Of a stretch of DNA of 64,000 bases, positions 14,101 through 17,100 are shown piece after piece. A program made the position numbers and the translations under genes. Source of the stretch: Owenia fusiformis. Its lineage: Eukaryota; Annelida; Polychaeta; Sabellida; Oweniidae. The notes below the pieces were generated by a model, which worked only from the letters and a program-made list of their open reading frames with translations, was not told the origin of the DNA and did not search any database. The stretch's first letter is position 1. Each line of letters begins with the position of its first letter. The stretch covers positions 28,323,915-28,387,914 of the forward strand of contig CAIIXF020000001.1 in the NCBI GenBank assembly GCA_903813345.2, written 5' to 3'.

Positions 14101-17100
14101 GTACTAGCTTCACTAAAGATGACGGAATGCGAAGATTTGATCTAATCATTTTATTAGTATTCATGCATGTATTGATGGATAAAGCATGGAGGATTCGTTT
14201 CAAAGCACATCTACAATACAGTACTGGATTTGCAATTACTTTTGTACATATGTGAGTGATCTGTAGTGAACTTGAGGTTTTAATGATACCCCAAGTTCAA
14301 TCCGAGACATTAAAATATGCCTGGAGTATTTCTGGAATAGAAACATGCAGATTGATTGGGGATGTTACGTTTATAGCCCACCCTCCCTCTGGTCTCGGAC
14401 CCGACACAACTGTTAACGCGCTCTGTAATATAAAACAAAGGTATAAACCAAATATATGAACAATAAACCAGCATGCAAATACTACAACATAGAACCATAA
14501 AGGGTAAGAAACAACAAACATACAGAACTAAATGGTCAGCGAAACACAACTGATTCTTAGCTAACTGAAAGTATACCTATAGTCGTTGTGGCTTCGACTA
14601 ACCTGTGTTATGATCATACAGTATTCTAGATGTTATAATACGACCACATTGGGAGAAGATACGTTCCAAATCGGCTTGCGTCATTTTTTGTGTCAGTCCA
14701 CATATATACAAGTTAGCGCCTTTAATACTCTCGCTACTTGGCCTTGCATACGAAACCTGCCAAAGTAACAGTTATAAGGGGAACCCGGGTTAGTAAATTT
14801 AAAAGAAACAACTTAGAAAGTTTGCAATACCTGTTGTTGGATCGCATAGGATTCTTGAAGTTATTATATTGCCAGCGGGTGAAAACATAGTTTCCAAATC
14901 CAACTGAGTCATAGTTTTGGACAGCCCAGATATGTACAAGTTTGCCCCCTTTATGCTTTCACTGCTAGGCCGTGCGAGGGAAACCTACACAAAACAGATA
15001 AACAGAAACAAAACAAAATAAACAAAAGCAAAATTAAATATGGTAACTGAAATAATACGATAGGAGTTGTGTTGGTCGTCACTTGCTACTCCCGCCACCA
15101 TTCATTGTGACATGTTACTGGAACCAATTGTGACATGTTACTAGCACCAAATGTGACAGGTTACTGGAACCAATTGTGACATGCTACTGGAACCAAGTCA
15201 AGTTACTGGCCCAATTGTGACATGTTACTAGCTAGAATCAGTTATGACATGTTACTGGAACCACTGTAACATGCTACTGGAACCAATTGTAACATGTTAC
15301 TGGAACCAATTTTGACATGTTACTGGAACCAATTGTAACATGTTACTGGAACCAATTTTGACATGTTACTGGAACCAACTGTGACATGTTACTGGATCCA
15401 AGTGTGACATGTTACTGGATCCAAGTGTGACTTGTTACTGGAGCCAATTATGACATGTTACTGGAACCACGAAGACATGGATACTGGAACCAGTTTCATG
15501 CTAGAGCCACAACCATACAAACTATCTTAACATGTAACAAATATCTTTATGTAAGGCATGAGCAGTTTACACCTTTAAAATGTCCATTTCACTAAAAAGT
15601 GCAGTGAATACCCAGCGTGAGATAGTTTATATAGCCTGGTCACCCATTCTAAGTTAAAGGCATTCAGTATTGCAGTACAGTTCAATATTAACCAATTTGC
15701 CTGAAATCAGCTAGACATTGTTTTTAAATTGATTAGAACTGCAATATTGCCATGGTTCTAATGTACCATAATGACACAACTAGGAACGGGCAACCATTGA
15801 TGCTCAATTACATTGCAGTTTAATACACTGTTCCAGTTTCAAACCTAACTACCAGTATCTCTAGCATAGCTTTCTTCACCGAGAGTGTTTTTAATTACAT
15901 GCACTTCCTTTGTATTCTTAGTTATCAATAAAACAATATTTAGAGACAGCGGCAGCCAGAGTCTTAGCATGGTGCCATTAATTGATCTAATTAATTATAA
16001 AGGTATGAAGCATACCAATGTCTTGCTGGGTTATGATATGGTGATGCTGATAAATGGCTGAGAGTGGATGCTCCTACAGCCATAGACATTAGAGACATAG
16101 AAGCATAAGCTTGAAACTGGAGCAGTGCCATAGCACATTATCTGTTAATATTCTCAACTAAGAAATTATCATTATTTCAAGCATTGAAGATCTGAATTTG
16201 ATACAAAGTATTGTTTTAGGTAGTGGCTATGTAAATAATATTCATTTAAGCTAGTTTTATGCATGTCAGTAAATAGTAGACTACTCGTAAAATAATGTTA
16301 CCAGAAAAGCTATAGTAATGTCAATCATGCTTTTTTGCAACAAAGGTTGTCAGAATGATCATTTGCAACCTTTATTTCACTATCACTCATTTAATTGACT
16401 AATCGTTAAAAGGTTAGTGGTAAATAGGTTTAATTTGTTAATGGGACTCCATCATAGCAATATTAGTGTCTGCTAGGTAGGAAGTCTTTTCTCTCCAGAC
16501 TTCATGCATGTGTCTATAGTTGCTCATCTTGGCCGATGAGTCTGTCAGTCTCAATTCAAATGTCAGTGATTTTTATTGTATTTACACAGAAACATTGATT
16601 GTGAATATGTTTATGAATATTGACTTTCTCGTTAGCATTTACTAATGGACGTGTGTTACACATATTTACCATATTTGTTGATTATACTTGAAGTGTAATA
16701 TGAACTGTTTTGCATTGATTTTTGATAATTTGGATTTTGAGTGATTATATTTCTACTGATGAAGGTGAAGAATTCAGTCTATTGATTAGAGCGAGAAACT
16801 TTTCATGGGAAAATATAAAAATTTATGATTATCAACTTATCGCATTAAGAAAGAATTTCAAATAAAAGAGAGAAAAATGAACTTATAAAGTCTACGAATG
16901 AGAAATTATTTGACAGAATTAGGCTGCTGAACTTCATTATTTAGCAGTAATAAAAAAGGCACACACGTAATGTTACAGCTATCTAGCAACAACTCAGTGA
17001 GTAGGAGAAATGACCTGGTGGCGTGATCATATGACACAACTTGAGATTCTTATTGACTTTAAATGATTTACTGATTGATTTATTAATGATAAGGTAAAGA

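Follow-up and report, generated by a model that had tools for sequence, protein, structure and literature searches.

Two tandem copies of exon 4, probably spliced as alternatives, encode the first half of RRM2 in an ELAV/Hu gene

The window, which is the 64-kb stretch of DNA that was analysed, carries an ELAV/Hu gene on its minus strand, with two tandem copies of exon 4, designated 4A (upstream) and 4B (downstream). Exon 4 was, in all likelihood, duplicated in tandem long ago and is probably spliced mutually exclusively, which would yield two ELAV proteins that are identical outside the first half of RRM2. In neurons, ELAV/Hu proteins have a key role in RNA regulation, and the diversity of their RRM2 is usually attributed to gene duplicates. 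Here, a single gene seems to carry two old versions of this region. As RRM1 and RRM3 are held constant, the two forms provide a natural pair with which to probe the helix/loop side of RRM2.

Gene structure and predicted splice forms

The exons and associated features are listed in Table 1. Numbering follows the vertebrate habit, in which exon 2 is the one with the likely start codon. The earlier note on this DNA had described two adjacent exons of 154 nt with the same phases and intact splice sites, and the coordinates, AG/GT borders and phases were all recovered. The junction phases are equal for both copies (phase 0 at exon 3/4 and phase 1 at exon 4/5). The acceptor of 4A ends in tag and that of 4B in cag, while the donors read gtattg (4A), gttagt (4B) and gtaaga (exon 3). 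Compared by eye, these three donors fail to match the U12 donor consensus, and U2/U12 incompatibility is accordingly not indicated as a basis for exclusive splicing. The intron separating 4A and 4B is the shortest of six compared, that is, the five of the ELAV gene, of which the others span 8787, 2134, 4216 and 4973 nt, and one of approximately 210 nt (by eye) in a nearby carboxypeptidase-like gene. No third copy of exon 4 was found in the 64-kb window by tblastn; apart from the copies themselves, either query matched only the related RRM1 exon at E < 0.1. Intron 3 also contains a minisatellite of 16 copies of the 23-nt unit ATTGTGACATGTTACTGGAACCA (15104-15469), 120 nt upstream of exon 4A, which could influence splicing or vary among individuals.

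Table 1. Features of the ELAV/Hu gene, in window coordinates
Feature	Position	Strand	Remarks
Exon 2 (first half of RRM1, with the probable start codon)	26010..26220	-	
Exon 3 (second half of RRM1; upstream partner of the exon-4 pair)	17119..17222	-	
U-rich tract before exon 4A	14985..15034	-	four UUUNUUU within 15006-15026
Exon 4A (upstream copy, 154 nt; RRM2 first half, VSLARPSS...DPTT)	14831..14984	-	open frame, AG/GT, purifying selection
Intron 4A-4B (74 nt)	14757..14830	-	TACTAAC, predicted branch A at +41; other candidates +37, +56
Exon 4B (downstream copy, 154 nt; RRM2 first half, VSYARPSS...DHNT)	14603..14756	-	open frame, AG/GT, purifying selection
Exon 5 (RRM2 second half, hinge start; downstream partner)	10149..10386	-	
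Last coding exon (hinge end and RRM3, stop codon)	4833..5175	-	Pfam RRM_1, three stretches in the spliced protein

On the evidence of their translated sequences, both splice forms are ELAV proteins. They score 505.1 bits (4A form) and 502.4 bits (4B form) against TIGR01661 (ELAV_HUD_SF), far above the cut-off of 279.1, and Pfam RRM_1 matches three stretches in each. The initial assignment of these exons to the first half of RRM2 in an ELAV gene holds. When RRM1-RRM2 of the 4B form was compared by sequence with solved structures, the top three were HuD, HuC and HuR. When the model of RRM1-2 in the 4A form was compared by fold, the top matches were HuR (4ed5) and HuD (1fxl). These models were made with AlphaFold2 from single sequences, using five runs per form, and the best mean pLDDT was 88.1 for 4A (range across the five runs, 33.8-88.1) and 80.3 for 4B (38.5-80.3). 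Both forms are predicted to be tandem RRMs in which strands and helices follow one another in the same sequence; helix 1 of RRM2 begins at residue 99 in both models and ends at residue 109 (4A) or 106 (4B). As the TM-scores of the 4A model to 4ed5 and 1fxl are 0.56-0.57 across both domains and its pTM is 0.49, the relative placement of the domains is unreliable.

The length of exon 4 is 1 mod 3 in both copies, and the reading frame depends on how many are used. Splice forms 2-3-4A-5-7 and 2-3-4B-5-7 are each open and encode 339 amino acids. In contrast, and exactly as had been read earlier, inclusion of both copies leads to a stop after 153 amino acids, which is codon 8 when counted from the 4A/4B junction, and skipping of both leads to a stop after 100 amino acids, following five codons of exon 5. 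These stops precede the last junction by 369 nt and 220 nt, respectively. Stops that far before the last junction usually trigger nonsense-mediated decay, so mRNAs with both copies or neither would decay. The sequence hallmarks of a mutually exclusive tandem pair are present: the exons are adjacent, homologous and equal in length and phase, and neither double inclusion nor double skipping gives the full protein. Any one mRNA very probably contains just one of exons 4A and 4B.

Divergence of the copies and the residues that differ

The copies are identical at 104 of 154 nucleotides and at 37 of 51 residues, and alignment thereby reproduced the residue identity claimed in the earlier note. The same residue figure is obtained for human HuD and HuR over the exon-4 stretch (37/51), which are, in contrast, products of separate genes and not of alternative exons. 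The 50 nucleotide differences are split 8/11/31 over codon positions 1/2/3 and, by the Nei-Gojobori count, pS is 0.815 and pN is 0.181. With pS above 0.75, Ks is not computable. In none of 2000 codon bootstraps was pS equal to or below pN. Similarly, when 50 random changes were simulated 5000 times, 37 identical residues were never retained (maximum 29) and 31 third-position changes were never reached (mean 16.5); 22% of the simulated sequences were free of stops.

With saturation at synonymous sites (pS 0.82) and a pN of only 0.18, it follows that both copies have long been under purifying selection. Saturation also means that the age of the duplication is unreadable from synonymous sites, other than that it is great. 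Neither copy can be named as ancestral because they are near-equally close to their relatives: each is identical to HuD at 35/51 residues, to HuC at 33/51 and to Sxl at 24/51, with identity to HuR of 36/51 for 4A and 34/51 for 4B. Neither the RRM1-2 protein of the 4B form nor a six-row alignment (A1) had a relative in genome_contigs or viral_contigs, as expected of these collections for an animal gene. Judged from the two coding sequences, the exon-4 pair is real, old and selected.

The 14 differing sites are located at positions 95, 111, 114, 115, 116, 120, 124, 125, 128, 129, 131, 139, 141 and 142 in HuR numbering, which was fixed by matching the residue names used in papers to the HuR sequence. 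It had been claimed that the changes fall around RNP2 and the first helix. Position 111, which is Ser in HuR and Cys in 4B, lies in RNP2, five sites (120, 124, 125, 128 and 129) are placed in helix 1 by the 4A model, and the remaining eight lie in the linker, in loops, in a turn and where a strand ends. In the linker, 4B has the tyrosine found at position 95 in HuD, HuC, HuR and Sxl, and 4A has Leu there. In addition, neither copy has Pro114, which is invariant in the same four proteins; 4A carries Ser and 4B carries Thr at this position.

In the passages of the cited papers that were available, seven HuR residues are called RNA-binding on structural, NMR or mutational grounds: R97, I103, K104, N107, I133 and N134 (PMC10488267) and Y109 (PMC12570136). 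None of the seven differs between 4A and 4B, a result that is suggestive only (chance P 0.089), and both copies carry Thr at the position of N134. The proposal that the isoforms prefer different RNA targets is a weak one. A ten-residue contact set (P 0.027) was dropped, since S94, A106 and R136 are not named as RNA-binding in the cited passages, and the text of PMC9757038 gave no match for HuR contact residues. The overlap between the variable sites of 4A/4B and those of the Hu paralogues is 7/14, which is not significant (P 0.079). Most likely, the isoforms would keep core U-rich RNA binding and differ on the helix/loop side of RRM2, and thus in partners, multimerisation or affinity.

How one copy may be chosen

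Exclusivity would be set mainly by the reading frame (154 = 1 mod 3), combined with nonsense-mediated decay of the double-in and double-out mRNAs. The short intron between the copies may help. Some animals readily splice introns of less than 74 nt. Here, a TACTAAC places the predicted branch A at +41 from the donor and 33 nt from the acceptor, and other candidates are found at +37 and +56, that is, 37 and 18 nt from the acceptor. A donor-to-branch distance of about 41 nt would possibly hamper splicing of 4A to 4B, as the steric limit is given as approximately 50 nt in the available passages of PMC7969005. The same passages describe a short donor-to-branch distance in OGDH exons 4a/4b and in rat Tpm1 intron 2, where it is 41 nt, and call the precise role of the short distance in donor inhibition unclear for OGDH. 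Unlike the best candidate here, the branch points in those genes are distant from the downstream acceptor and come with a long pyrimidine tract (PMC7969005). The earlier argument from the shortness of the intron is plausible on the best branch match, but the candidate at +56 would exceed the limit, so a steric block is only a possibility. Competing intron pairing of the docking/selector type was not found in any of six intron pairs beyond what shuffles gave (up to 600 nt each, 60 shuffles each); for the best pair, 7/60 shuffles were as low as observed.

The acceptors of the two copies are dissimilar. The last 50 nt before the exon are 68% T at 4A versus 40% at 4B, and the nearest AG upstream of the 4A acceptor is 62 nt away. 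In the 120 nt before the exon, UUUNUUU occurs four times at 4A, once at 4B and not at all at the four other acceptors. Sliding windows over the gene (5176-26009) show at least four such motifs in 10 of 2072 cases, and all 10 cover the 4A site. The densest 120-nt stretch on the whole minus strand of the 64-kb window holds five and lies elsewhere, so the cluster is unusual in the gene, not unique in the window. Further, exons are normally preceded by U-rich tracts, and the cluster may simply mark a strong acceptor. With a human matrix, the 4A donor scores poorly (0.34 bits, versus 3.28-6.85 for the four others); by this matrix 4B has the better donor, and its U-tract is the poorer one. No known RNA family matched positions 4000-30000 of the window at gathering scores.

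Exon choice might also be regulated at the U-rich 4A acceptor, although this has less behind it than the frame. ELAV itself could conceivably compete with U2AF at this site, shifting the mRNA towards 4B. In the available passages of a review, which also treats the regulation of neuronal RNA by ELAV/Hu proteins, these proteins are said to cross-regulate exons of ELAV-family genes, and HuR is proposed to prevent U2AF65 from occupying a 3' splice site, with the caveat that a general mechanism is not established (PMC8904962). Negative autoregulation of 4A would fit, as an idea and not as a finding. It is rather doubtful that a self-regulated RRM2 exon swap replaces the Hu paralogues here, with ELAV binding the 4A acceptor, lowering 4A and shifting splicing to 4B as its level rises. 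If true, the swap would give neurons or tissues a switch with two states whose depth, over the exon-4 stretch, equals the difference between HuR and HuD.

Other explanations of the pair have been considered. A regulated poison arrangement, in which one copy makes nearly all of the protein and the forms with both or neither copy are decayed to hold the ELAV level down, is improbable, even though both misspliced forms stop early, well before the last junction, and the ELAV-like motifs at the 4A acceptor could give feedback. A pure poison exon need not preserve a protein-coding half of an RRM, and the differences between the copies show strong constraint at the protein level. Less probable still is that one of the two is a relic that was lost recently or is scarcely used and whose frame has not yet decayed. 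The weak 4A donor, by the human matrix, and the absence from 4A of the linker tyrosine common to HuD, HuC, HuR and Sxl are in keeping with this. However, the saturated synonymous sites together with the low pN and the near-equal family scores suggest that both copies were constrained for most of their history, and 4A and 4B are equally near HuD.

Assembly or haplotype duplication, or chance similarity, can practically be dismissed. No point was found in favour, whereas the third-position changes are in large excess over the simulated mean, and exon borders and phases are preserved in both copies. In addition, nucleotide divergence of 32% far exceeds what haplotypes show. Mutually exclusive use of two old, selected copies is the reading that is preferred.

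Related systems and neighbouring genes

The nearest precedent found for the ELAV exon-4 pair is the pair of exons Ab and 3 of U2AF1 (U2AF35). According to the available passages of PMC5224494, these, too, are homologous exons in tandem, identical in length (which is not divisible by three), in a gene for an RNA-processing protein, and use of both or neither leads to a stop and decay. Within the RRM-like domain (UHM), the changes affect RNP2, a helix and a short disordered stretch. In contrast to the pair described here, the U2AF1 exons are 67 nt long, differ by only seven residues and are known from vertebrates (PMC5224494). Moreover, the UHM binds protein whereas the ELAV RRM binds RNA, and no kinship at the level of the exons is claimed. 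Beside U2AF1, ELAV would be another RNA-processing factor whose RRM-fold domain is switched by tandem exons.

Within the ELAV family, alternative splicing in RRM2 is described for honeybee elavl2 (exons 3a and 4a-4d), where skipping of the exon 4 variants also shifts the frame; that system is different in that residues are added to a loop of RRM2 and that alternative splice sites and hinge exons are involved (PMC8553928, available passages). These passages mention no duplicated exon 4, and the term 'mutually exclusive' is absent from the text (PMC8553928). Among the matches listed from mostly open-access literature, searched by title and the start of the abstract, none reported that exon 4 of an ELAV gene is duplicated. 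The novelty that had been claimed relative to vertebrate and fly ELAV genes is consistent with these matches, tempered by the U2AF1 precedent and the honeybee RRM2 variants. Existing gene models may already contain the pair without comment.

Several other features are found in the window. A carboxypeptidase gene on the plus strand (38527-40460) is AGBL4-like by eye and is positioned head to head with the ELAV gene; one piece (39017-39244) matches Peptidase_M14 with 24.5 bits (cut-off 21.6) and two others have no Pfam match. Human ELAVL4 and AGBL4 are neighbours as well, which suggests an old conserved gene order. A retrotransposon at 58570-62453, presumably Ty3/gypsy-like from its domain order, has matches to reverse transcriptase (58570-60558) and integrase (61047-62450) and may sit within a polymerase-like gene. 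Here, the minus strand at 55931-56260 matches RNA_pol_Rpb1_5, the piece at 56859-57230 has no Pfam match, and pieces up to 63731 are POLR1A-like by eye only. Finally, the region 43546-44792 is repetitive, with long repetitive open frames on both strands in the frame list (SDVYSFYTF and related).
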